A stretch of DNA of 64,000 nucleotides from Comamonas odontotermitis (lineage in GTDB: Bacteria; Pseudomonadota; Gammaproteobacteria; Burkholderiales; Burkholderiaceae_C). The stretch covers positions 2,646,001 through 2,710,000 of the forward strand of contig NZ_CP083451.1 in the NCBI RefSeq assembly GCF_020080045.1. Direction: 5' to 3'. The notes below the pieces were generated by a model. The model was not told the DNA's origin. It saw only the letters and a list, made by a program, of their open reading frames with translations, and did no database searches. Of this stretch, positions 30,370 to 44,245 are shown piece after piece. The position numbers and the translations under genes are program-made. Position 1 is the stretch's first letter. The number at the start of each line of letters is the position of its first letter.

Positions 30370-31806
30370 TCAATTCTGCGTGTCTTCCGAAAACAGCTTC
30401 CACTCGCTGCCCACCTTGCGCCAGTACTGGCGCAGCGACAGGGGCTCGGCCTGGTTCTTTCCCTTGAGGCGGAAATTGGCAATGCGAATCTCGCCTTGTG
30501 CATCTTTCCAGGCAAAGACTGATATGTCCTGCAGGGCAGCACCGCCTTTGAAGACCGTCGCCATGCGCTCCTGCATGGCCTGTCCGCCCGCCGAGCTTCG
30601 CCAGTCTGGCTGGTAGAGCGGCGACAGCGCCGTCTGCGCATCCGCCTGGCTCCAGCCCTGCTGCCAGCGATCCAGCACGGAGAGAAAAGCGTCGCGCTCG
30701 CGCCCCATGGCGGCGTCGGCAGCCGCGACCCAGTGCAGGCGCTCACGCACCAGCACTGGCGAGAGGCGTCCCACAGTTCGCATCAAATGCGTCAGATCGG
30801 TATTGGCTAGCACCATACAGCCGTCGCTTGCGAGCGGCAGGCGGGCAAACTGGTCTGGCGGCGTACCATGAAGCCAGATGCCGCTGCCCGAGCGCCCGAC
30901 CACCTTGTCCCAGTCATTGGGGTAGTTCACCGTCAGGGCTCCCTTGCCGTAGAACTCCGGCAGCTTGGGGCCGGGAATCTGCCTGCCGATGAAATACACC
31001 CCCTCGGGCGTGCGCTGGTCTCCCTCTTCGAGTTTGCCCATGCCCAGCTTGCCGACAGAGACGTAATAGTCGCCGGTCAAGCGCGGCTTGCCGCCTTCAT
31101 TGGCAAACAGATATAGCCGCGACTTGCTCGCATCAATGGCAATCGCCTGGCGCACCGAGGGCGCCAGCGCCAGAAACTCAGCAGGAATGCTGCCGGTCGC
31201 CGGCAAGGCATTGGCGCCCTGCACGCGGCGCTTGATCTCGTCCTGCAAACCGCGCAACTGCTCCATGCTGTCTGCGCCGGGAGCTGCACTGGGTTGCGGC
31301 GTATGTTTGACCCGCATGGCCCCCGCCTCCGGCAACGGCGCAGGAGACAGCGCGCCCGCATGGCCGGTCTTGTAGCGCAGCAAATCGGCATACACCAGCT
31401 GCGCAGCCTGAAAATGCGGTACATCCGAAGTCAGCCGGGATGCCTCCTGCAAAGCCACATCCAGTTTTTGCTGCTGTACCAGATCAATCACCTTCAACAA
31501 GCGCGCCTCGGCACTGGCGTGAATGGCGGCAGGCACCGATGCTGCCACCGGCACAGCGGCCAGCGCAGCGACGGTTTTGCTGCCTTTGGCGGGCTCCGAG
31601 GTCTTGGTTTTTTTCGCGCGTCGGCTTTCCTTGGCGGATGCAGCAGATTTGGCCGAAGAGCCGGTAGCCGCGCGCTGGCTCTGCGTGGCGCTGCCGGTTT
31701 TGCTTTCCGCTGCCTTTCTGGCATGCGCAACACCGAGCGCGCCGCTTGCGGCGACCGCCAGTGCTCCCATGGCCAATGGCCGCCAAAATTGCTTGCTAAA
31801 AGGCAT
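30370..31806 (-). CDS. L,D-transpeptidase (YkuD) with C-terminal NTF2-like domain
   Basis: A 478-residue exported protein acting on peptidoglycan peptide stems. The signal peptide is KQFWRPLAMGALAVAASGALG...AHA. A low-complexity Lys/Ala/Ser region (to residue ~75) precedes a YkuD domain whose catalytic residues are visible as IWLHGTPP (His313) and ASDGCMVL (Cys330). The last ~110 residues (QPDWRSS, IRIANFRLKGK, QYWRKVGSEWKLFSED) resemble the NTF2/SnoaL-like domain of the Cds6-type L,D-transpeptidases. A similar domain ends the next protein upstream. ATG 31806 sits just before the signal peptide. The exact reaction (crosslinking or hydrolysis) is open. Confidence 0.85.
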   Translation of the reverse strand: MPFSKQFWRPLAMGALAVAASGALGVAHARKAAESKTGSATQSQRAATGSSAKSAASAKESRRAKKTKTSEPAKGSKTVAALAAVPVAASVPAAIHASAEARLLKVIDLVQQQKLDVALQEASRLTSDVPHFQAAQLVYADLLRYKTGHAGALSPAPLPEAGAMRVKHTPQPSAAPGADSMEQLRGLQDEIKRRVQGANALPATGSIPAEFLALAPSVRQAIAIDASKSRLYLFANEGGKPRLTGDYYVSVGKLGMGKLEEGDQRTPEGVYFIGRQIPGPKLPEFYGKGALTVNYPNDWDKVVGRSGSGIWLHGTPPDQFARLPLASDGCMVLANTDLTHLMRTVGRLSPVLVRERLHWVAAADAAMGRERDAFLSVLDRWQQGWSQADAQTALSPLYQPDWRSSAGGQAMQERMATVFKGGAALQDISVFAWKDAQGEIRIANFRLKGKNQAEPLSLRQYWRKVGSEWKLFSEDTQN

Positions 31807-31911
31807 TGCCCAGACATCCTCATCCCGCCGCCCGACCACAGGTGGCGCGCTGCGCATGATACCGCGCCGCTCTATTCCTCAGACGCTATTGGTGCGAGAT
31901 GACACGCAACA

Positions 31912-33195
31912 TCACCCACCGGTTGCTTCGCGGACGATGTGCCACTGCCCCTTCTCGTGACGCAGGCTCAAGGTCTTGCGGGTAGTGGTCTTGAGCGAGC
32001 CCGCTGCATAGTACTGGCGGAACTTGGCTGTTGCCTGATCGCCATCCAGGCTGACCTGCAGGTTCTGCACCTTCACATCGATCGACTGCTTGCCGACAAT
32101 GCGTGCCCGGCGCTCCTCTTTCCAGGCCGCCAGGCTGCCTCCGCCGGCCGGCTGGAACTTGTCGCTGTATGCATCGAGATAGGCCGTCATGTCCTTTTTC
32201 TCCCAGGCTGCCGCCCAGGCATGCACGGCGCGCTCCACCTCTGCCACTGCGCTTTGGCGTGCAGCAGGCTTGGCCTCCGCGACAGCAGCGGGCTTGGCTG
32301 CTGGCTCGTCCTTGGGCTTGGCGCTTGCTGCAGGTTGTGCCGGCGCTGGAGCTGGGGCCACGGGCGCAGGCGCCGCCGGTGCTGTAACGGGAGCTGGTGC
32401 TGGTACTGGTACCGCAGGTTTGGCAACGGGCGCTGACTCTGCCTTGGCGACCACAACGGGCTCGAGCTTGGCCACAGGTTGCGGCTTGGGTGGCTGCAGA
32501 GGCTCCGGCTTTGCTTCGGGCTTGGGCTCGGGCTTTCGTTCAGACGCAATTTCGGCCTTGGGCGGTGCTTTTACCGCCGACGGTGCCGCAGCACTTCCGG
32601 CATCTGCCACCACGGTCTTTCCCCGGCTGGCGGTGCCAGGCACGATCTGGGTGATCAGGGCCAGCTTGGGACGAATGTCCTGGCGCGAACCGTCCAGCTG
32701 CAGAGCCTTGGAATAGGCCTCGCTCGCCATGCGTGCGTACAGGTCTCCCAGGTTTTCGTGGGCGGTGGAATAGCTGGGGTTGGTGCGAATCGCCTGCTCC
32801 AGTGCCTCGGCAGCCTTGCGCTCCTGCCCATCGGCGGCATACAGAACCGCCAGGTTGTTATAAGGCTCGGGCATGTTGGGATATTCGCGCGTCAGGGCCG
32901 AGAAAATCTTGATCGCCTGTGCATTCTGCTTTTGCTCGGTGGCGATCACCCCACGCAAAAAACGCATCTCCACGTCTGTCGGGTTCTGCTGCAGATGGCT
33001 ATCCGCCTGCTTGGCAGCCAGATCCGCCTTCCCTTGCTCCAGCAACTGCGTTACCTCTTCAGCAGCGCGGGCCGCCAATGCAGGCAGCCCATGCAGCGCC
33101 ACGCCACACCCCAGCAATAGCGCTGCCCAGTTGCGATTCCAGTACAAGCGGCGATTGGGTTGCACAGGTGGCAAGACGTGAGGCGCAGTCATCAT
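31912..33195 (-). CDS. TPR protein with Pro/Ala/Lys-rich linker and NTF2-like C-terminus
   Basis: A 427-residue predicted exported or membrane-anchored protein (hydrophobic WAALLLGCGVALHGLPALAA, residues ~20-40). TPR repeats follow at residues ~45-155 (TDVEMRFLRGVIATEQKQNA, PEPYNNLAVLYAADGQERKA). A long linker rich in Pro, Ala, Lys and Val (residues ~195-305, PKPEPKPEAKPEP-like) leads to a C-terminal domain (YLDAYSDKFQPAGG, QNLQVSLDGDQATAKFRQYY, RKTLSLRHEKGQWHIV). This appears to be the same fold as the C-terminus of the adjacent transpeptidase. ATG 33195 and ATG 33192 are both possible. The gene leads the minus-strand pair and is divergent from the repetitive adhesin gene. Confidence 0.8.
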   Translation of the reverse strand: MMTAPHVLPPVQPNRRLYWNRNWAALLLGCGVALHGLPALAARAAEEVTQLLEQGKADLAAKQADSHLQQNPTDVEMRFLRGVIATEQKQNAQAIKIFSALTREYPNMPEPYNNLAVLYAADGQERKAAEALEQAIRTNPSYSTAHENLGDLYARMASEAYSKALQLDGSRQDIRPKLALITQIVPGTASRGKTVVADAGSAAAPSAVKAPPKAEIASERKPEPKPEAKPEPLQPPKPQPVAKLEPVVVAKAESAPVAKPAVPVPAPAPVTAPAAPAPVAPAPAPAQPAASAKPKDEPAAKPAAVAEAKPAARQSAVAEVERAVHAWAAAWEKKDMTAYLDAYSDKFQPAGGGSLAAWKEERRARIVGKQSIDVKVQNLQVSLDGDQATAKFRQYYAAGSLKTTTRKTLSLRHEKGQWHIVREATGG

Positions 33196-33498
33196 AAGCA
33201 ATGGTTCTCTCTGCAATGGCTGGAAAAGGCAGGCAAGGCTGCCGGACATCGAAATGAGCGACATTGTGAGCCACCTGCGTACGCGCGCGACCAAAGGTCG
33301 CTAATTATACATTTAGATACATGTATTTTTATCGATAGCACGGGCGCATAAGCAACGGTAGCCCAATCGTCATCAGCATAAGCCATCAGCGTTTGCGGGC
33401 AATGCGTATTTTCGGCTCCAGATCAGCACGAATGCGCTTTTCGGCGCACCTCAGGGTAAACGCCAGGCATGGCAAAAAGCTACGGCTCCGTGGTGCCG

Positions 33499-33726: not shown

Positions 33727-36700
33727 ATGACCGCCGCCAACACATCGACCCTCTGCGTGACCAACGATGCCGCCAAATCCGGCGACGGTGCAAAAATGGC
33801 TTCCGCCTCGCTCACCCAAGCGTCTGCCGGTGTGCAGATCGTGCGCGGTGGCCAGTCAACGGCTGCTCAGGCAGGAGGCAAGCTGCAAATCGGCGACACC
33901 ATTGTGGTTCCGGCTGGCGGCAACGCCCAGGCCGTCATCACCAACCATGACGGACAATCGCAGATCGCCACATTGGCGGCCAATACCGAAGCCACGCTGG
34001 ATAGCTGCGATAGCGGCGGCGCTGCAGGCGTGGCGGCATTCACGGCGGCTTCGGGCAGCGTGGAAACCGTTCCTGCAGCTGCAGATGCGGCCTCTCCTGC
34101 TGCCAAAACAGAAGCAACCGACAGCAACGACGATGCAGGTGGCGCCGTTCTGGGCGACTTCTTGCTTGCCAGCCTGGTCGGCATTGGTGGCGGCGTGCTT
34201 GCAGGCGCACTGCTGAACAGCGGTGACGATGACGATGATTCCAAGCCCACCAACCCAGGGACCGAAGAGCCCGGCATGACTGATCCGACGGACTCGACGG
34301 ATCCAACGGATACAACCAATCCTACGGATACGACCAATCCCACGGATACGACCAACCCGACGGATACGACCAACCCAACGGATACGACCAACCCAACGGA
34401 TACGACCAATCCCACGGATACAACCAATCCCACGGATACGACCAACCCTACGGATACGACCAACCCTACGGATACGACCAACCCTACGGATACGACCAAC
34501 CCTACGGATCCAACCCATCCTACGGATCCAACCCATCCTACCGATCCGACCCATCCTACCGATCCGACCCATCCTACCGATCCGACCCATCCTACCGATC
34601 CGACCCATCCTACCGATCCGACCCATCCTACGGACCCGACCCATCCTACCGATCCGACCCATCCTACCGATCCGACCCATCCTACCGATCCGACCCATCC
34701 TACGGACCCGACCAACCCGACGGATTCCACTGACCATGGTCTGATCACCTCGGTACAGGATTTGGTGGACAACCTGCTGGGCGGCACGGTAGCTGGCCCC
34801 GTTGGCAATCTGATCGACACCCTGGTCAACCCCAATACCGGTACGCTGGCAGCGGTAACCGGACTGCTGGAGAGCCTGACCTCCGTCAGTGGTGGCCCCC
34901 TGGGTGTACTGACCGAGTTGGTGGATGGCTTGACGCTGATCGATGGCCAGGCGCTGGAGCCACTGATCGATACGCTCAACGGCTTGCTGCAAGGTCTGAA
35001 TGAACTGGGCACCGGTGGCTCCATCGGCAACGTAGTGAACAATGTGCTCGGCGGCTTGCTAGATGAAGGCGGTCTACTGGGTGGCCTCCTGGCTGGCGTA
35101 GGCTCTTTGCTGGGCGGGCTGCTGGGCGACGGCTCCGGCAATCACCCGGGCAATCCTGACTCTGGACTGGTGACTGCGATCCAGGATGTCGTGAACGACC
35201 TGTTGGGTGGCACCGTGGCAGAGCCGGTCGGTCAGTTGCTCGATGCATTGACCAACCCCACCGACGGCCTGCTGTCTGCAGTCACCGGCGCGCTTGAGAG
35301 CCTGACCACTGTGGAAGGCGGTCCTCTGGGCGTGCTCACCGAACTCGTCAACGGCCTGGCACAGATTGATGGCGAGGCCCTCCAACCTGTGATCGGTACT
35401 CTCAATCAACTGATTACAGGCCTTGGCAATGGCCTGGGTGAAGGTGGATTGGGCGGACTGGTCGGAGGCCTGCTGGGCGGACTGATCCCTGGCGGCGGCA
35501 CCGGTGGCGGCAATGGCGATGGCATCGTGACCTCGGTGCAGGATGTAGTAGACGGCCTGCTGGGCGGCACCGTGGCAGAGCCGGTCAGCCAGTTGCTCGA
35601 TGCACTGACCAACCCCACCGATGGCACGCTGGCCGTTGTGACTGGCGTGCTGGAAGGTCTGACCAACGTGGACGGCGGCCCCCTGGGCGTGCTGACCGAA
35701 CTGGTCAATGGCTTGACGCAAGTGGACGGCCAGGCGCTGGAGCCCGTGATCGGCACCCTCAACCAATTGATCGCCGGCCTGGGCAATGGCCTGGGTGAAG
35801 GTGGTGGCGGCCTGGGCGGATTGGGTGAACTGCTGGAAGGCTTGCTGGGCGGCTTGATCCCTGGCGGCGGTACTGGTGGCGGCAATGGCGATGGCATCGT
35901 GACCTCGGTGCAAGACGTGGTGGACGGCCTGCTGGGCGGCACGGTGGCAGAGCCGGTCAGCCAGTTGCTCGATGCACTGACCAACCCCACCGATGGCACG
36001 CTGGCCGTTGTGACTGGCGTGCTGGAAGGTCTGACCAACGTGGACGGCGGCCCCCTGGGCGTACTGACCGAACTGGTCAATGGCTTGACGCAAGTGGACG
36101 GCCAGGCGCTGGAGCCCGTGATCGGCACCCTCAACCAACTGATCGCTGGCCTGGGTAGCGGCGTCGGGGGCGATGGCATCAGTGGTCTCGTCCATGGCCT
36201 GTTGGGCGGCGTCCTCGGCGGTGAAGGCGGCTTGTTGGGCGGTGTCCTCGGCGAAGGCGGGCTGCTCGGTGGCGTGATTGGCGGTGACGGTGGCCTACTG
36301 GGTGGTGTGCTCGGCGGTGACGGTGGCCTCCTCGGTGGCGTCCTTGGCGAAGGCGGCCTGGTTGGTGGCTTGCTCGGCGGTGAGGGCGGCCTGTTGGGCA
36401 GCGTCCTCGGCGGCGACGGTGGCTTGCTCGGTGGCGTGATCGGTCAAGACGGCCTGGTCGGCGGGTTGCTGGGCGGCGAAGGTGGCCTGTTGGGTGGCGT
36501 GATCGGAGGTAACGGCGGTCTGCTTGGCGGCGTCATTGGCGAAGGTGGTCTCGTGGGCGGTCTGCTCGGCGGCCTGACAGGCAATGGCGGCGGCGCTGGA
36601 TCGCACGGTCTGGTTTTGTCGGTTCAGAACACTGCCGGAGACCTGCTGGACGGCACCGGTCTGGCTCCGGTTGCCAATGTGCTGGATGCCTTGGTGGAGC

Positions 36701-37266
36701 CAGTGATCGGCCTGGTACACGACACGGTGGCAGGTATTTCCACCGGAGGCGCAGCGGGCGATGCTGCTGGCAACCTCTCTGGTCTGCTCGATACCGTTCT
36801 GAACCCGGTTGCCGGCATTCTGCCCGGTATCACGGATGCTGCAGGTGGCACGGACGATCTCAATGTCGCCGCGCTGGCAGAGGGCTTGCTGGGTGGCGTT
36901 GGCACCACGCTCAACAACGTGCTCGGCGAGGATGGATTGGCTGGCACCCTGACAGGTGATCTGACAGGTAGCTTGACTGGTGGCCTCACGGATGGTCTGA
37001 CCAGCGCCGATGGCGCAGTCAACCAGCTGCTGCAAGGGCTGCTGGGCAACAACGGTCTGACCAATGGCCCGCTGGGAGGTGTATTGGGCGGCGGCGGACT
37101 GCTGGGCTTGGGAGGCTCGGTCTCCGTTACCTCCACGGCAGCGCAGGCCTCGGCCGATCTGCATCCGGTTTCGCTGGCCATCAGCAGCCACGTCAGCGGA
37201 GCAGACGCCGTAGGCTCCAGCGGCGTGCTCAGCCAGGATCTGCAGCACCATAGCCTGGCACTGTAA
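33727..37266 (+). CDS. Large repetitive Gly/Leu-rich secreted protein, LapA-like adhesin candidate
   Basis: A 1179-residue surface protein of a type I secretion locus. (1) Residues ~30-100: a FecR/LapA-like beta domain ([43 protein letters not shown]), ending at Gly98-Ala-Ala-Gly101, similar in position and sequence to the LapG cleavage site of LapA adhesins. (2) Residues ~138-163 hydrophobic, then a DDDDD patch. (3) 25 six-residue PTDxTx units. (4) Four repeats of ~90-125 residues starting G(L/I)(I/V)T(S/A)(V/I)QD, with a fifth degenerate one near residue 960. (5) A block of [13 protein letters not shown] units (residues ~820-955). (6) A Ser/Ala-rich C-terminus. No Cys-rich or RTX nonapeptide calcium repeats are seen. 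It is followed by an orphan gene and a complete type I exporter. Function as adhesin or matrix protein is inferred. Confidence 0.78.
34285..34734 (+). repeat. In-frame 18-bp tandem array, 25 units
   Basis: Exactly 450 bases, 25 units of 18 bp inside the adhesin gene. The order is one PTDSTD unit, eleven PTDTTN units, eleven PTDPTH units, then PTDPTN and PTDSTD. The two homogeneous blocks suggest separate expansion by slippage or unequal crossing-over. Changes in unit number keep the frame. Confidence 0.95.
35521..36160 (+). repeat. Two nearly identical ~270-bp segments in the adhesin gene
   Basis: 35521-35795 and 35890-36164 encode the same protein repeat (from [20 protein letters not shown] to [12 protein letters not shown]). 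They differ at only a handful of bases, far less than from the other copies at 34738 and 35164. This points to a recent tandem duplication or gene conversion. Confidence 0.88.
36187..36590 (+). repeat. Gly/Leu-rich short repeats (GGLLGGVLG type)
   Basis: About 400 bases coding for units close to [12 protein letters not shown] with Asp, Glu, Asn or Gln alternating at one position. The unit is roughly 10-13 residues and the periodicity is imperfect. Confidence 0.85.
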
Positions 37267-37353: not shown

Positions 37354-38829
37354 ATGATGAACGTATCGCTCTTCAGCCGCCCCGCTCCGACTGCAGCCGC
37401 CGCCATGGCTGCAGACGACCACCGCGCGCTGCGAGCGGAGCCCGTTGATCTGGCGCAACAACTGGATCTGGCTTTCCGGTTTGTTGCACAGCATGTGGTG
37501 TCGCTCCCCGACCCCTATGCCTGCTGCGTGCTGTTCTTTACCGTTGCCGCAGAAGAGTTGCCAGTCAGCAGTTTCAGCATCCGCCGCGTGACCCTGCACG
37601 CCGCCTGGCGTGAAGGCGCCACACGCGTGCGCCAATGGGCATGGGCCCACAACGCGAGCGGCGTGGAGCTGCGTATCGACTGGGCCTGCGGCATCCAGCC
37701 CGTAACGCCTCAGCAGAGCCAGTTGCGCACGGCAGACCCCACGCGCACCTGGGCGCTGGCCGACGACGAGCTGGAATACACAGAGCTGCTGACGGCCCTG
37801 GGCAAGAACACGTCGCGCAATCTGGCCGAAGTGCAAAGCCTCTGCGACCCTGTTCCCGTGACCACACATGCGCGCTGGCAGTTGCTGCTGGAAGGCGTAT
37901 ACATTGACCAGCAAGGCGAGCTGACAGCACTTCCCCGCCCTCGCCTGTCTCCCAGCCATCTGCGCCATGGCCCAGCAGGCCCCATGCTGTACCGTGCCAC
38001 GCAGCAGTTGCTGGCCCAGCACCAAAGCGATGACGGCAGCTGGCCGGAAGCAGGAACCCTGCTGGACCATCTGGGCATCACCTACGCCTTGCTGCTGGCA
38101 CACAAGAACACCCAGATGGAGTCTCTCAGGGACGACGCAGGCACCCGGGCCTGCCACCGTGCCATCGCCTATCTGATCGAGCAGATGCGTCGCTGGAGCC
38201 TGCATGACTATGCCAGCGAAATGCTGCATGCCATGAGCCTCATCGTGCTGGTGCGTTACACGGAGCAGTTCCCTGGCGCCATCGCGTCTTCGACCGTGAG
38301 CAACCTGATCACTTTGCTGTCCCAACAGTTGGGCGGCGTATCACCTGCCCTCCCAGGTGATACGCCGCCATGGGGCGGGCTGAGCCTGGAAGCCCTGCGC
38401 CGGCGCCAGCAGCAGTCAGCACCCGATGAACTGCTGCCCTTCCAGGGCTCCAGCCGCAGCTACGACGGCAAATGGCTGCACGCAAGCTGGCCCCAATTGC
38501 GCCTGATCGCCGACGACGGTGGTCGCCCCTCGCCCGCTGCCCAGCCCTGGACAGCCATCGCGGTCATGGAATGCGCGCTGCGCCAAGGGCAACCGCAATT
38601 CATGAGCGACGGCATGCAGACGCAGTTCAAAGCCAATATGCAGACCCTGTTTCGCGCCTGCTACCAACGCATCGTGTGGCCGGAAGTCGCGCTGTTTCAA
38701 GCCAGCAACCACCGCAAGCAGGCAGCCTTTTTCTCGCCTCGCTCAAGCAATGCACTGGTCAGCGACTGCCGAGTTGCCAGCCAGTTGCTCATCACCATCA
38801 ACGCAGCCATGCACTTTGCAGGCGCCTGA
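37354..38829 (+). CDS. Unrecognised protein with alpha-toroid-like C-terminal half
   Basis: A 491-residue protein I cannot assign to a family. No signal peptide or membrane segment is seen, so it is probably cytoplasmic. The N-terminal ~140 residues look beta-rich (CCVLFFTVAAEELPVSSF, IRRVTLHAAWREGATRVRQW). The C-terminal half is helical and contains LLAQHQSDDGSWPEAG, a QW-like motif (Q-x3-G-x-W) of terpene-cyclase/prenyltransferase alpha-alpha barrels. Further helices follow (ACHRAIAYLIEQMRRW, ASEMLHAMSLIVLVRYTEQF). It sits between the adhesin and its presumed exporter. A substrate-specific chaperone, modifying enzyme or processing factor is plausible, but this is speculation. ATG 37354 or 37357. 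Confidence 0.6.
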   Translation: MMNVSLFSRPAPTAAAAMAADDHRALRAEPVDLAQQLDLAFRFVAQHVVSLPDPYACCVLFFTVAAEELPVSSFSIRRVTLHAAWREGATRVRQWAWAHNASGVELRIDWACGIQPVTPQQSQLRTADPTRTWALADDELEYTELLTALGKNTSRNLAEVQSLCDPVPVTTHARWQLLLEGVYIDQQGELTALPRPRLSPSHLRHGPAGPMLYRATQQLLAQHQSDDGSWPEAGTLLDHLGITYALLLAHKNTQMESLRDDAGTRACHRAIAYLIEQMRRWSLHDYASEMLHAMSLIVLVRYTEQFPGAIASSTVSNLITLLSQQLGGVSPALPGDTPPWGGLSLEALRRRQQQSAPDELLPFQGSSRSYDGKWLHASWPQLRLIADDGGRPSPAAQPWTAIAVMECALRQGQPQFMSDGMQTQFKANMQTLFRACYQRIVWPEVALFQASNHRKQAAFFSPRSSNALVSDCRVASQLLITINAAMHFAGA

Positions 38830-39192
38830 ACGCGGCGCCCCCCAAAGACAAGCTCTCCACGACTGGCAGCTGGGTACCACCCGGCACTCACGTTTATTTA
38901 TTATTTATTTGTATCAATTAATAAAAAAGAATAACAAAATCCATCACCAATTTTCCAAATTCCCTCAAAGTTACGTAACTTACGCACAACTTGCTATCAC
39001 TACAGAACGCAGTTGTCATTTACTAACATTCATAAAAGTGCAGATTGTCACTTTTTAATACCTATATGGCACTATTTATGGAAATTATTGGTTACATAAC
39101 CTTCCGATGGTTACTCAATGTCTGCACAATACTTTGGAAACGGTTCCTGATCATTGGTTTCTCGTTGTTATCAACCCGACAGTTTTCCAGCC
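38830..39192. promoter_or_regulatory. AT-rich control region of the type I secretion operon
   Basis: 363 bases without a gene, markedly AT-richer than its surroundings (TTTATTTATTATTTATTTG near 38890). It holds AAGTTACGTAACTT (38968-38981), a perfect palindrome, and GTTACATAAC (39091-39100), a one-base variant. A hairpin AAAAGTG (39034-39040)/CACTTTT (39049-39055) lies between them. A weak sigma-54-like TTGGTTTCTCGTTGTT occurs at about 39153; I do not rely on it. Confidence 0.75.
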
Positions 39193-41058
39193 ATGATTGA
39201 ATTCCTGCTTCCTTACAAACTGGTCTCTGCAGCATCTGCTGCAGCGCCAGCGGGTGTGGCAGGGCCGTTTTCCAGGGCCATTGCCAACAGCTTTGAACGC
39301 TCTTCCAGCCACCTGCGTCAGGCAGCCTGGCTGTCGCTGCCCATCAGCCTGCTGGGCTTGCTGCCTTCAATCTTTTTGTTACAGGTGTACAACCGCGTCA
39401 TCTCGCGCGGTGGCAACGCCACCTTGATCGCCATGGTGGCAGGTGTGCTGTGCTTCTTGATTCTGGAGTTGTGGTTGCGGCGCAAACGCGCTCGTGCCTT
39501 GCGCGAAGCAGGCGCCACGATTGACCGCGACCTTTCTCAATCCTTGATGCAATCCATGCTGCGCCACCCCATGCTGGCACTGGAGCAGCGCTCATCCAGC
39601 CAGTGGCTGCAGCTGTTCCGCGATATTAGCGCCTTGCGAACATGTGTGGCTGGCGGCGTCGCCTCCTCCATGCTCGACCTGCCGATGGCGCTGGTGGCCT
39701 TGATTGTGGTGGGCATCATTGCCTGGCCCGTGCTGCCGGTCATTGTGGTGGCCATGCTGATCCTGGGCGTGCTTGCCTGGTGGTGGGCCGATGAAGTGCG
39801 CAGCGGCAAGGTTGAAGAAGTGGAACAAGCCCGCCAGCTGGACCGCAGCACCGCCGAAATCTGCAACGCACGCGCCTCGCTCAAGGTACTCGGATATGAC
39901 GCAGCTGCGCTGCAGGCCTGGCAGGTCGGCTACGACCGCTGGTTGGCCGAAAGCTTTCGCAAGAACGGCGAGATGGAAAACGCCAAGGAATTCACCCATG
40001 TGCTGCTTACCCTGTTCTCGGTGGCGGTCATCACCATGGGAGCCATTGCCATCAATGCGCAATGGATGACGATTGGCAGCTTGATGGCAGTCAATCTGCT
40101 GTCGAGCAAGGCACTGGGCCCCATCGCCCAATTGGCCAGCAACTGGCGCTCCCTCGCCCGTGCCAACGAATCCGCTGCACGCGTACAGGCCGTGCTGCAG
40201 GAGCCCCTGGAGAACCCATCCCAGAACATCGAATTGCCTCGCCCACGCGGTCAGTTCAGGCTCGACCAGGTCAGCTTTCAGTATCCTTCGGGCCACCAGG
40301 CGCTGAACAAGGTCTCGCTCAGCATGGGCCCTGGCGGCATCCATGCCATTGTGGGACGCAATGGTGCCGGCAAATCCACACTGGCCAAGCTGATGGCCGG
40401 GCTGTATCAGCCCACCGCCGGAGCCATCTCCATTGACGAATACGACATGGCGCAGTTCTCACGCGCCGACCTGGGCCGCTGGGTGGGATGCCTTGCCCAA
40501 CAGAACTACTGGTTCAGCGGCCCGATCGTCGATGGCTTGCGCATGGTCAGCCCCGACGCAGACGACGCCAAGATCATCCGTGCCTGCCAGCTCTCGGGCG
40601 CGCACGGCTTCATCAGCCGACTGCCGCACGGCTATCAGACCGAACTGGGCGAAGGTGGCGCGGGCCTCTCTGCCGGTGAGTTGCGCAAGCTGGCCGTGGC
40701 ACAGCTTTTCCTGCGCAATCCTTCGGTACTGATCCTGGACGAGCCCAGCAACGATCTGGATTTCGAAAGCGAGACTGCATTGCTGCAGGCATTGCGCCAG
40801 ATCGCAGCCAAGCACACGGTTGTGGTCGTGACGCACTCGCTGCGCGTGGCCTCGCAGGCCCAACAGATCTACCATGTTCAAGGGAATGGCCAGGTCGAAC
40901 ACGGTACTCCGGAGCGCATGTTGCCCAAGCTGTTTGGGGTAGTAGCCCGTACCAGCGGACCCGAGCAGCACCAGCCACAGGCGGCACCAGCAGCCAATCA
41001 ACCAACCGTGAGCAACGATGATGAGCGGGGCGCGATCGCACAGGAGGCCACACCATGA
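39193..41058 (+). CDS. Type I secretion ABC permease/ATPase (PrtD-like)
   Basis: A 621-residue inner-membrane exporter. The membrane domain has WLSLPISLLGLLPSIFLLQV, LQVYNRVISRGG and further helices to residue ~300. The ATPase has Walker A GRNGAGKST (residues 388-396) and Walker B VLILDEPSNDLD. The signature is LSAGELRKLAVAQL, so the usual LSGGQ reads LSAGE, an uncommon variant. There is no N-terminal C39 peptidase-like domain, unlike LapB. The C-terminus ends in a Gln/Ala/Pro-rich tail. ATG 39193 is chosen; a start 13 codons earlier is possible. It is the first gene of a three-gene operon with ATGA overlaps. Confidence 0.9.
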   Translation: MIEFLLPYKLVSAASAAAPAGVAGPFSRAIANSFERSSSHLRQAAWLSLPISLLGLLPSIFLLQVYNRVISRGGNATLIAMVAGVLCFLILELWLRRKRARALREAGATIDRDLSQSLMQSMLRHPMLALEQRSSSQWLQLFRDISALRTCVAGGVASSMLDLPMALVALIVVGIIAWPVLPVIVVAMLILGVLAWWWADEVRSGKVEEVEQARQLDRSTAEICNARASLKVLGYDAAALQAWQVGYDRWLAESFRKNGEMENAKEFTHVLLTLFSVAVITMGAIAINAQWMTIGSLMAVNLLSSKALGPIAQLASNWRSLARANESAARVQAVLQEPLENPSQNIELPRPRGQFRLDQVSFQYPSGHQALNKVSLSMGPGGIHAIVGRNGAGKSTLAKLMAGLYQPTAGAISIDEYDMAQFSRADLGRWVGCLAQQNYWFSGPIVDGLRMVSPDADDAKIIRACQLSGAHGFISRLPHGYQTELGEGGAGLSAGELRKLAVAQLFLRNPSVLILDEPSNDLDFESETALLQALRQIAAKHTVVVVTHSLRVASQAQQIYHVQGNGQVEHGTPERMLPKLFGVVARTSGPEQHQPQAAPAANQPTVSNDDERGAIAQEATP

Positions 41059-42533
41059 CCCGTTCTGGCCGCCACCACGATTTGCCCGAAGTGCTGCAAA
41101 ATGCCGCACCTGCCGCACCTGCCGCACCTGCCGCACCTGCCGCACCTGCTGCAACGCACGACCGCCATACGCATGCAGCAGCCCCCGATGCCGCCAACGA
41201 CCACGCCCCACCAAAGCTGGCGCCGTCAATTGGCTCCCCCCTCGTCTCGCCATCTGTACCCACCCGCCCGCCACTGTTGCAGCGCCTGGCAGGTAGCCGC
41301 AAGGTGATTGCCTCTGCCGTGGGTGTGCTGGTACTGATGGGACTGTTCTACCCGGTTGAGAACGTCGTGGTCGCCAGCGGTCAGGTCATCCCGTCTGATC
41401 GCGTTCAAGCCGTTCAGCATCTGGAAGGCGGCATCGTCACCGCCGTTCATGTCAAGGAAGGCCAGACTGTTGTCCAAGGTCAGCCGCTGCTCGATATCGA
41501 CCTGGGTGGTGCCAGCCTCAATCTGGAGCAACTCACCGCCCGTCGATCCACTGCACAGGCCATCAAGACCCGGCTGACAGCAGAAAGCCAGGGCCGCCGC
41601 CTCATAGCCGCAGACTTTTCCGCCGATCTGGAATCGCGCATCGTGCAAGCGGAACTGGGTGCATTTGCCGCACGCGGACTGGAATACCAGGGCAGCATGG
41701 CTGCTGCTCAGGCCATGCTGCAGCAGGCGCAAGGCGATGTAGCGCAGATCCAGGCACGCATCACGGGCCTGCAGACCGGCCTGAAGCTGTATGAACAGGA
41801 AGCCAGCATTGCCAACCAGCTTGCAGCCGAGCAACTGATTGGCCAATTGGAAGTGATCGACAAGCAGCGCGCGCTCGAACAGGCCCGCACCGACCTGGCC
41901 GCAGCCAGGCAGAATCTGGTCAGCACACGCGCCAAGGTAGAACAAGGCCAGGCCAAGCTGGTGGAAACACAGGGCGCCTTCCGTCGCAGGGCATCCGAAG
42001 AGCTGGCGCAGACCGAGCGTGAACTGCACAGCCTGTCCGAAGACCTGTCGCGGGCCCAGAACCAGCGCACCCGCACGGTAGTGCTCGCCCCTATCGATGG
42101 CGTCGTCAAGGGCCTGCGCAGCTCGGGCACCGGCTGGGTTGTCAAACCCGGTGAGCCTATTCTTGAAATCGTGCCGGACAAGGACGAAGTCATTGTGGAG
42201 GCGCGCCTCAACCCCGCAGACCGTGGCTATGTGCACGTCGGCCAGTCCACCAAGGCCAAGGTCACTGCCTACGACTACCTGCGCTATGGCTTTGTGCCTG
42301 GCAAGGTCACACTGGTGTCGGCCGATGCCGACCAGGACCCCAAGCAGCCGGACACCGCCGCGTATTTCCGCATCCAGGCCAGCCTGCAGCAGCCCTGGGT
42401 GGGGCGTGCCGACAACCGCATCACCACAGGCATGCAAGCCGAGCTGGATCTGCTGCTGGGTCGCGAGCCATTCATCTGGTATCTGCTGCGCCCCGTTCTG
42501 CACATCCAGAGCGAAGCCTTCCGGGAGCCATGA
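41055..42533 (+). CDS. HlyD-family type I secretion adaptor
   Basis: A 492-residue membrane-fusion protein linking the ABC exporter to the outer-membrane channel. The cytoplasmic N-terminus (~70 residues) contains five AAP units coded by a 9-bp tandem repeat (41103-41147). One membrane segment follows (VIASAVGVLVLMGLFYPVE, residues ~85-103). The barrel-sandwich half-motifs ASGQVIPSDRVQAVQHLEGG and VLAPIDGVVKGLRSSGTGWV flank long coiled coils (residues ~150-330). The C-terminus has LDLLLGREPFIWYLLRPV, typical of HlyD/PrtE. Start ATG 41055 overlaps the previous stop. Confidence 0.92.
   Translation: MTRSGRHHDLPEVLQNAAPAAPAAPAAPAAPAATHDRHTHAAAPDAANDHAPPKLAPSIGSPLVSPSVPTRPPLLQRLAGSRKVIASAVGVLVLMGLFYPVENVVVASGQVIPSDRVQAVQHLEGGIVTAVHVKEGQTVVQGQPLLDIDLGGASLNLEQLTARRSTAQAIKTRLTAESQGRRLIAADFSADLESRIVQAELGAFAARGLEYQGSMAAAQAMLQQAQGDVAQIQARITGLQTGLKLYEQEASIANQLAAEQLIGQLEVIDKQRALEQARTDLAAARQNLVSTRAKVEQGQAKLVETQGAFRRRASEELAQTERELHSLSEDLSRAQNQRTRTVVLAPIDGVVKGLRSSGTGWVVKPGEPILEIVPDKDEVIVEARLNPADRGYVHVGQSTKAKVTAYDYLRYGFVPGKVTLVSADADQDPKQPDTAAYFRIQASLQQPWVGRADNRITTGMQAELDLLLGREPFIWYLLRPVLHIQSEAFREP
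41103..41147 (+). repeat. 9-bp tandem repeat, five units, in the HlyD gene
   Basis: Five identical GCCGCACCT units coding for Ala-Ala-Pro in the N-terminal cytoplasmic part of the adaptor. Slippage would change linker length in steps of three residues. Confidence 0.95.
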
Positions 42534-44245
42534 CCATGACAGGTACATTGCTCCATTTCCAAAAATCCTGGCGCCGCCAGTGGTGGACAGCTGCCTGTGC
42601 TTTCGGCCTGGCTGCGGCCTCTGCGGTATCTGCCCAGACCGACGGTGTTGCAACAGCGGTAACTGCCACTGCGGTAGAAAGCACGGAGCTTGCAGCGGAG
42701 GCTTCTGCGCCACCGGTCGACGCCATACAGGGTAGCCGTGAGCTTGAACTGCTGCTTGCGCCGCAACTCAGCCCCCGGTCATTGGCAGGTGAAGCTGCGC
42801 AAAAGCAACTCTTGACCGCGCTCTACGCCATGCTGAGCGAGTACCCGGATGTGCGCAAGGCGCGCTCTGCGGTCGATGCAGCAGGCAACGACGTGAGCAC
42901 CGCCAAGAATGCCCGGTGGCCGTCTCTCAAAATTGGTACTTCGTCGGGCAATGCCTCGCTCGCGCAAAGTCAGAAACGCGAATCCTACACCGCAGTCAAC
43001 GCCGAAGTGCGCCTGAGCCTGCTCGATGGCGGCGCCATCGATGCGGGCATCCGGTCTGCAGAGTCCACCGAGGCTGCGCAAGGCAGCGCACTCTACAGCA
43101 CCCGGCAGAATGTGCTTCTGGAAGGACTCACGGCGCTCTTGGAGCTGCACCGCTTTGACACCAAGGCTCGCATCGCAGCCGAGTCGGCAGACATTATCGG
43201 CCAGCTCGCCCGCGTGGAAGAGCGCCGCGCCGAATTGGGTGCGGTCGGCCGCAATGACCTGCGCCAGGCCGCATCACGCCGAGCCAGTGCCCTGGCCCAG
43301 CAGCATGCCTTGCAATCTCAGCGCATGGATGCACAGGCCCGCTTTGTGCGCTACTTCAACTACACGCCCAGCGTCACGGCATTGCCCCAGTTGCAGATCC
43401 CCAGCAATTGGATGCCTGTGGACGAAGCCGCTGCCCTGCAGGCATCAGAGCTGCAAAGCTCCGAACTGAAGGAAATCGCGCATGTAATCGAGCGCGCGCA
43501 GGCAGAGGTGGATCGCAGCAAGGCGCAGCGCTGGCCCACCTTGTCTGCTGTGGTGGCCCACACGCGCGACCCCAAGAGCGTGCTCTACAACGACGGCACC
43601 CGCTATGGGCTGGAGCTGAACTGGAACTTCGGCAACGGCTTCGAGCTGCGCGACCGCATTCTCAAGGCCTTGAACGAATTACAGGCCCAGCAGGCACAGC
43701 AGGAAGCCGTGCGCCGCCAGGTGCATGAAGCGGCCGCCGCCGCCTGGGGCCGCTGGCAGGCCGGGCGTGACCGCGAAATGCAACTCTCCGATGCCGTGCG
43801 CGAAGCGCGCGGCGCCTTTGAAGGCTATCGGCGCCTCTTGCAGGTCGGCCGCGGCAGCCTGTCCCAGGTGCTCGACGCCCAGCTCGACATGCAGCGCCTG
43901 ATGCTGGACGAAGCCGATGCCATTTACGACCAGCGCATCAACGCATTGCGCCTGGTACGCACCACGGGCCAGCTCTTGCCGACGGAGTTGCCTCCGCACT
44001 GGCTCGACCAGCTGTTTGCACAGGGTGCCCGCCCTCTACCTCCATCCAGTTCGGGCACACCAGCTGTGCCCCCAGTACCCGGCAGCGTTGAACCCGGTAC
44101 GGCACCCACCAATCCATCTCCCCCTGTTTCCACGATTTCCGTAGCAACCGCACAGCGCTTGCCGTTGCAGCTCGCACCCCGGCTCAACCCCGTGATGCTG
44201 GCTGCGCCCCTCTATCAGGACATGCGCTATGCCGTGCGCTGGTAG
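42530..44245 (+). CDS. TolC-family outer-membrane channel of the type I system
   Basis: A 571-residue exported protein. The signal peptide (WWTAACAFGLAAASAVSAQ) is followed by two OEP repeats with long helices: VRKARSAVDAAGNDVSTAKN, NVLLEGLTALLELHRFDTKA, LRQAASRRASALAQQHALQS, YRRLLQVGRGSLSQVLDAQL. The normal fold ends near residue 500. The final ~70 residues form a Pro/Ser/Thr-rich extension (PPSSSGTPAVPPVPGSVEPG) not usual for TolC. ATG 42530 overlaps the adaptor stop; ATG 42536 is an alternative. Confidence 0.9.
   Translation: MTMTGTLLHFQKSWRRQWWTAACAFGLAAASAVSAQTDGVATAVTATAVESTELAAEASAPPVDAIQGSRELELLLAPQLSPRSLAGEAAQKQLLTALYAMLSEYPDVRKARSAVDAAGNDVSTAKNARWPSLKIGTSSGNASLAQSQKRESYTAVNAEVRLSLLDGGAIDAGIRSAESTEAAQGSALYSTRQNVLLEGLTALLELHRFDTKARIAAESADIIGQLARVEERRAELGAVGRNDLRQAASRRASALAQQHALQSQRMDAQARFVRYFNYTPSVTALPQLQIPSNWMPVDEAAALQASELQSSELKEIAHVIERAQAEVDRSKAQRWPTLSAVVAHTRDPKSVLYNDGTRYGLELNWNFGNGFELRDRILKALNELQAQQAQQEAVRRQVHEAAAAAWGRWQAGRDREMQLSDAVREARGAFEGYRRLLQVGRGSLSQVLDAQLDMQRLMLDEADAIYDQRINALRLVRTTGQLLPTELPPHWLDQLFAQGARPLPPSSSGTPAVPPVPGSVEPGTAPTNPSPPVSTISVATAQRLPLQLAPRLNPVMLAAPLYQDMRYAVRW

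Follow-up and report, generated by a model that had tools for sequence, protein, structure and literature searches.

TOR is a 491-residue protein encoded on the forward strand at positions 37354–38829 of a 64,000-nucleotide stretch of the Comamonas odontotermitis genome (contig NZ_CP083451.1, positions 2,646,001 to 2,710,000; hereafter the window). We propose, with slightly better than even confidence, that TOR is a reduced and probably inactive relative of a family of adhesin-associated toroid proteins, and that it acts as an adaptor binding a repeat adhesin. Its open reading frame (ORF) runs uninterrupted in one frame from an ATG start to a TGA end, and is placed between the ORF of REP, a 1179-residue Gly/Leu-rich repeat protein that is presumed to be an adhesin of a type I secretion system (T1SS; 33727–37266, forward strand), and ORFs of the ABC, HlyD and TolC types (39154–44245). 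The end of REP and the start of TOR are 87 bp apart, and a large repeat surface protein thus adjoins the TOR gene. That the gene is real, beyond chance, is confirmed by homologues in 20 of 53 genomes of the genus and by a ratio of nonsynonymous to synonymous substitution rates (dN/dS) of 0.11–0.14 against the closest relative. The original prediction, made from the sequence alone, had described an orphan of this length and position without a signal peptide. Length and position hold, whereas "orphan" does not, since TOR is related, in reduced form, to a large family whose members are usually fused to a Mur ligase.

The homology of TOR to the canonical members of this family was established by hhalign (98.7%, E 1.9e-16, residues 31–308), and the sole locus found by the canonical profile in the same genome is TOR itself (37450–37734, E 9.3e-8). 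Of the near-invariant toroid columns of 29 canonical rows, however, the window copy keeps only 27 of 125, and 11 of 53 polar ones; because of this TOR is, judged by its retained residues, a derived relative and not a canonical member of the TOR/GtfC family. Eight of 27 near-invariant columns are kept in the N-terminal domain. Canonical H247 is retained as H239, and the positions aligned with H351, H405, D410, H411 and H524 are changed or deleted, with family-conserved histidines mostly lost; the alignment is uncertain past residue 308, and its control is in-sample. It has been considered that TOR is still an active enzyme (a sugar epimerase, a hydrolase or a glycosylation accessory) whose altered active site works on the glycans of the adhesin. 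The loss of four in five near-invariant polar positions and of the histidine and aspartate equivalents just named, within the same limit of alignment, makes this unlikely, and we infer that catalysis has been lost. The "new enzyme" offered as one option in the original prediction is likewise improbable for the window copy, in which most conserved toroid residues and the ligase are gone.

In the structure model, residues 1–198 contain 48 strand and 67 helix residues, so the half originally called beta-rich is better described by a confident alpha/beta part at about residues 30–118. The N-terminal alpha/beta domain, the most conserved portion of TOR, was placed at residues 31–118 (37444–37707, forward strand) from the model, the canonical profile match and hhalign. 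The C-terminal half is helical as predicted (189 of 293 residues helix, zero strand), even though pLDDT falls below 50 at 125–170, 328–369, 388–395 and 412–469; it would represent the eroded (alpha/alpha)6 toroid region (residues 199–491, 37948–38826, forward strand), of which the C-terminal portion has low model confidence. The QW-like motif QSDDGSW was found within QHQSDDGSW at residues 222–230 (38017–38043, forward strand), in the first toroid hairpin, and is the single occurrence of the core pattern Q-x2-5-G-x-W in TOR. No hydrophobic N-terminal segment is present (best 19-residue Kyte-Doolittle mean 0.73 for segments starting at residues 1–22). Against Pfam and NCBIfam, TOR matched no family at E<=1, and so no epimerase, glycosyltransferase, Mur or cyclase profile; its sole PDB row by phmmer, the glucagon-like peptide 2 receptor (E 0.089), was taken as chance, and as a tblastn query it found no match among plasmids. 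An AMMECR1-like N-terminal domain is not claimed, as it appeared in one weak Foldseek row (1wsc, E 0.42), an entry that we take to be AMMECR1-like.

Searching GTDB genomes with canonical members gave 433 relatives. The best 80 of these were surveyed, and they include Variovorax (26), Pseudomonas, Microbulbifer, Rhizobiales, Halomonas, Magnetococcales and others. Profile searches gave matches in 7 of 399 genomes of the order and 4 of 369 of the class; the order match L072 was rejected as an argininosuccinate lyase, and L071 as unsupported, with no family matched. The architectures seen are TOR alone, TOR-MurF, and TOR-PGA_cap(CapA)-MurF of about 1600 residues, the class of TOR only (15/80) including loci with Mur or CapA in an adjacent or broken ORF (e.g., L076, L077, L136, L146). 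Structure comparison of canonical relatives returned sugar-epimerase and GH76 barrels, among others, and no housekeeping enzyme; sugar epimerases rank above cyclases. A toroid-type fold class is thereby supported for the canonical relatives, and with it, at that level, the alpha-toroid-like label of the original prediction. The fold of the AGE superfamily 2-epimerases (such as cellobiose 2-epimerase) is non-specific, being found also in GH76, cyclases and others; TOR differs from these epimerases in its extra N-terminal domain and in having no epimerase family match, and EpiA rows for TOR relatives were weak and under cut-off.

ABC and HlyD genes occur together in the fetched stretch of 55 of the 80 loci. 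Among the 47 well-flanked loci (at least 8 kb upstream and at least 6 kb downstream; 29 without Variovorax), the pair is found in 41 and HlyD in 44, and outside Variovorax in 23 and 26 of 29, respectively; the six lacking the pair are L073, L104, L108, L113, L114 and L123. The chance expectation is about 0.7% (from 29 HlyD loci across 21 genomes, 84.6 Mb), a figure drawn from window relatives at E<=1e-30, with genomes and probes that differ from those of the survey. The TOR-CapA-MurF copies of genome G122 (L067, L068) have 1606 and 1610 residues; for these and for L070, a T1SS was not found within the fetched stretch.

Closer to the window, the TOR protein query matched 10 of 299 genomes sampled from the family and 20 of 53 from the genus, its own genome included. 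Stretches of up to 20 kb were taken around the 19 other genus matches and seven other-genus matches, giving 27 loci with the window. Of the 20 genus genomes, 19 have ABC and HlyD downstream of a TOR gene, and TolC follows as well in all 16 whose stretch extends that far. Upstream, 19 of the 20 have a repeat protein; the labels are partly composition-based (L042 entirely so), and the contig of L044 begins too near, its ORF start probably being upstream sequence read in the wrong frame. The ABC gene of L014, split over two ORFs, and the TOR gene of L015, over two frames, were left unmended. The exception in the exporter count is G315 (L037), in which ABC is reduced to about 87 residues with no close copy elsewhere in its genome; here a natural deletion has removed most of the T1SS operon, REP is shortened, and TOR is intact.

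The other part that separates TOR from its relatives is the Mur ligase. Seven of the 20 genus genomes and six of the seven other-genus loci (L015 in two frames) have TOR extended by a C-terminal MurF-like ligase, giving fusions of about 960–1100 residues; these long open frames had been considered GC-rich noise, an idea dropped once they were shown to be Mur fusions. Pfam Mur_ligase_M and Mur_ligase_C were found in all five fusions scanned, from the genus and from other genera, some under curated cut-offs. The best PDB row for the C-terminal part is MurF 1gg4 (E 3.3e-7), and the NCBIfam murF scores are all under cut-off. Within the fusions, the Mur module has undergone changes of its own. For reading the fusions by eye, we took the P-loop and NANPxSM as the Mur motifs. 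Genus fusions mostly keep a GxxGKTS-type P-loop and not NANPxSM; three of four other-genus rows have G-x-GSST-type letters with YDANPSSM kept, and Gulbenkiania (L065) and L069 keep both motifs. The toroid-MurF fusion of Gulbenkiania mobilis at L073 likewise has its motifs intact.

Both Mur domains are absent from the window TOR. Six Mur probes (tblastn, E 1e-3) found no match in the stretches of the other 13 genus genomes, the window included, and no Mur remnant was found in the AT-rich gap behind TOR (38830–39192, forward strand; GC 0.39 against 0.61 for the window), where relatives have their Mur part. In a tree of 30 TOR rows, all 19 rows without Mur group together (97/98), and a single change suffices for their distribution (none of 500 shuffles needed as few). 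The tree does have open forks and long branches; within this set, a single Mur loss fits. Mur-less TOR genes adjoining T1SS genes occur outside the genus too, for example at L138 of Halopseudomonas formosensis and at L133, L087 and L093. Toroid-MurF fusions (named "Mur ligase family protein" in Agrobacterium, Variovorax, Pseudomonas and Klebsiella aerogenes) share with TOR a homologous N-terminal part and the kind of locus, but differ by a C-terminal part resembling MurF, the UDP-MurNAc-tripeptide D-Ala-D-Ala ligase.

Relatives were also found on plasmids and in Gram-positive bacteria. Canonical TOR matched 54 of 72,556 plasmid records by tblastn, including Staphylococcus (15), Enterococcus (6) and Listeria (2); annotations under the matches include "Mur ligase family protein" and "poly(glycerol-phosphate) alpha-glucosyltransferase". 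In 9 of 9 regions viewed, which were hand-picked and not a random draw, a surface or repeat protein lies near TOR. SdrD-B or SD-repeat adhesin ORFs stand immediately upstream in S. epidermidis (two regions) and S. aureus pWBG759, and a 2031-residue T1SS-target protein does so in A. baumannii. The other regions contain an LPXTG protein (Listeria), a T1SS with an Ig-like protein (A. tumefaciens), "clumping factor" ORFs with a T1SS and a fusion gene (K. aerogenes), a BapA-prefix protein (Sulfitobacter), and, in S. haemolyticus, a giant ORF whose start is of the YSIRK type, about 4 kb past TOR and behind a separate Mur ligase and a transposase. Homologues lie mostly within loci of the kind originally described: they adjoin T1SS or adhesin genes in 19 of the 20 genomes of the genus, in 41 of the 47 well-flanked wider loci and in all nine selected plasmid regions. 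This neighbourhood and the absence of a housekeeping enzyme from the fold matches both speak for the original prediction.

The staphylococcal plasmid proteins, which share 35% identity with a canonical TOR along the full length, lead to the one relative that has been tested before. The order in S. epidermidis NZ_CP134836 is adhesin, TOR and a convergent glycosyltransferase, the same as that of pls, gtfC and gtfD in a study of Pls (PMC5230774). Of the gtfC primers printed there, the forward one matches TOR genes exactly in two plasmids; the reverse one, tested in one plasmid, matches there with a single mismatch. For neither primer did any of 200 shuffles match. Since these primers match TOR genes, GtfC (SACOL0051) is, by its primer sites, a TOR protein. 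According to the same study, full glycosylation of Pls requires both GtfC and GtfD, GtfD alone giving weak glycosylation (strain COL genes) or none (strain 1061 genes); HexNAc was located on serines of the SD repeats; GtfC is unclassified as a glycosyltransferase by CAZy; and preliminary tests found stability and secretion unchanged (PMC5230774). Two glycosyltransferase genes are reported to adjoin sesJ (PMC7029136). Glycosylation genes likewise adjoin the modified adhesin for GtfA/GtfB of serine-rich repeat proteins, to which TOR is comparable by position; GtfA/GtfB are described as resembling TagE-type glycosyltransferases (PMC5230774), and TOR is not a glycosyltransferase by Pfam. Glycosyltransferase families of Pfam were found neither in the window TOR nor in four Gram-positive or Acinetobacter TORs, and the neighbouring glycosyltransferase of L160 does score (PF00534, E 3.8e-34); the database name "glycosyltransferase" of TOR relatives appears to be misleading. 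We take lmo1798 to be the Listeria relative. It is mentioned once in a genome-wide association paper, in a passage that gives no function.

The staphylococcal pathway may not carry over to the window. GtfC-type TORs have the canonical toroid residues that the window TOR has mostly lost, and the GtfC system serves a Sec/LPXTG adhesin with GtfD as partner, whereas the window has a T1SS. A GtfD-like protein had no match in the own genome, in a search without a positive control, and two glycosyltransferase probes run on the collected ORFs matched only in L066, where a glycosyltransferase follows TOR; both results weigh against such a transfer.

How could a reduced TOR act? Canonical relatives combine an N-terminal alpha/beta domain with a sugar-epimerase-type (alpha/alpha)6 barrel and often carry a fused MurF-like ligase. 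Their genes stand next to those of large repeat adhesins, and the proteins presumably act on the adhesin while it is in the cytoplasm, prior to export; such action is shown only for staphylococcal GtfC. In the window genus, one branch of the TOR tree lacks the Mur part, and most conserved residues of the barrel are gone. The remaining N-terminal domain and first helical hairpins would most likely bind the repeat adhesin, for example at its Thr-Asp/Asn-Pro stalk (about residues 179–335 of REP; 34261–34731, forward strand; extent read from the translation), a candidate target. TOR may then serve as an adaptor or chaperone for modification of the adhesin or for its hand-over to the adjacent T1SS. 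The original prediction had likewise suggested a dedicated cytoplasmic partner that modifies or chaperones the adhesin; the adhesin partner is favoured by the gene neighbourhood and by GtfC as the studied relative, while the cytoplasmic location is something we infer.

The resemblance of the REP stalk to the SD repeats of Pls is by analogy only. In 11 of 12 selected REPs, [ST][DNE] pairs number 22–27 per 80 residues (mostly TN in some); G315, which also lost its exporter and most of its REP, has 6. Stalks similar to that of the window were seen in 10 of 11 relatives compared. Most of the 19 genus REPs read share a C-terminal tail, P-x-A-x-x-I-x-S ... L-x-H-x, a possible T1SS signal unlike that of RTX proteins.

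It may be asked whether the window TOR has any function left, being a dispensable relic of a toroid-MurF protein that decays in the genus. Several observations fit: the Mur part is lost, TOR is retained in G315 after loss of the exporter, and in four sister genomes TOR is shortened to 324–358 residues with dN/dS of 0.25–0.47. No trace of the C-terminal toroid half was found in the gap of these sisters, and because TOR ends at that length, the part that persists there is the N-terminal domain with the first hairpins. Against decay, the window frame is intact and under purifying selection: dN/dS of TOR against G315, the closest relative, is 0.109–0.136 (0.106–0.184 over three segments), near the 0.055–0.128 of three neighbour genes, although pairwise values cannot date events on the G315 branch. 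TOR is also present in all 19 exporter-keeping genomes among the 20 with a match, the 33 matchless genomes not having been checked for an exporter. A functionless relic is, on balance, quite improbable.

Less probable still is that TOR serves another system of the locus, such as the adjacent tad/Flp pilus or a pair of L,D-transpeptidase and TPR genes. The pair (YkuD-type in the window, 30370–33294, divergent from REP) lies upstream in opposite orientation in 17 of the 27 loci, five stretches being too short and five other-genus loci being without it, and a tad/Flp-type A24 peptidase gene lies downstream in 16. None of these genes was found in the five other-genus loci L015–L019, which retain TOR, the repeat ORF and the T1SS, and adhesins rather than pili recur next to relatives. 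A terpene or squalene cyclase-type toroid, suggested by the QW motif, can practically be dismissed: such cyclases have several QW motifs, whereas TOR has one core, Q-x2-5-G-x-[WF] is unmatched in 8 of 30 aligned rows, sugar epimerases rank higher in the fold comparison, and no cyclase family matched.

The exporter genes, all on the forward strand, comprise a T1SS-type ABC transporter (39154–41058, by family matches), an HlyD-type adaptor (41055–42533, TIGR01843 above cut-off) and a TolC-type outer membrane channel (OEP; 42530–44245, by family matches). From likeness to the starts of relatives, the true ABC start is probably 39193 (MIEFLLPYKL) and not 39154. An AT-rich gap precedes the ABC gene in relatives as well (GC 0.32 in L012 and 0.25 in L045), and a promoter/terminator scan of 38830–39192 gave no match. 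A second T1SS-type HlyD gene is present in the own genome (G000:C1:3112261-3113460). Six genus genomes contain a second TOR copy, 44–47% identical to the window TOR (five of six aligned), which at L038–L043 stands between two TPR genes with no REP immediately before it. For ORFs outside the Pfam scan, DUF4214, LapA-like and Bap-like are names that we assume.

More broadly, we tentatively suggest, as a possibility that we would not yet favour, that toroid(-CapA)-MurF proteins are a machine, so far unrecognised and spanning phyla, for the chemical modification of Ser/Thr-Asp/Asn-rich repeat adhesins ahead of T1SS or Sec export. The barrel would act on an attached sugar, and the MurF-like part would form an amide on the sugar or the acidic stalk; GtfC would be the only studied member found, and the window lineage the machine stripped to its adhesin-binding core. 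A full-text search found no paper joining Mur ligase with type I secretion terms, and among papers listed for Mur ligase, adhesin and operon, none is evidently on the toroid-MurF family, as judged from the listing. The family has been known piecemeal under differing names. As far as the literature was searched, what is new is the connection between GtfC and the toroid-MurF proteins of T1SS loci, together with the epimerase-type fold and a reduction in steps within the window genus.

An anonymous gene of a T1SS locus, many "Mur ligase family proteins" and staphylococcal GtfC would thus be members of a single family that has an epimerase-type fold and whose genes mostly neighbour large repeat adhesins or a T1SS, and the misleading database name of the GtfC-type relatives is called into question. 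The natural series of toroid-MurF, toroid only and half toroid bears on which part is needed, and modification of T1SS adhesins before export becomes a testable question.
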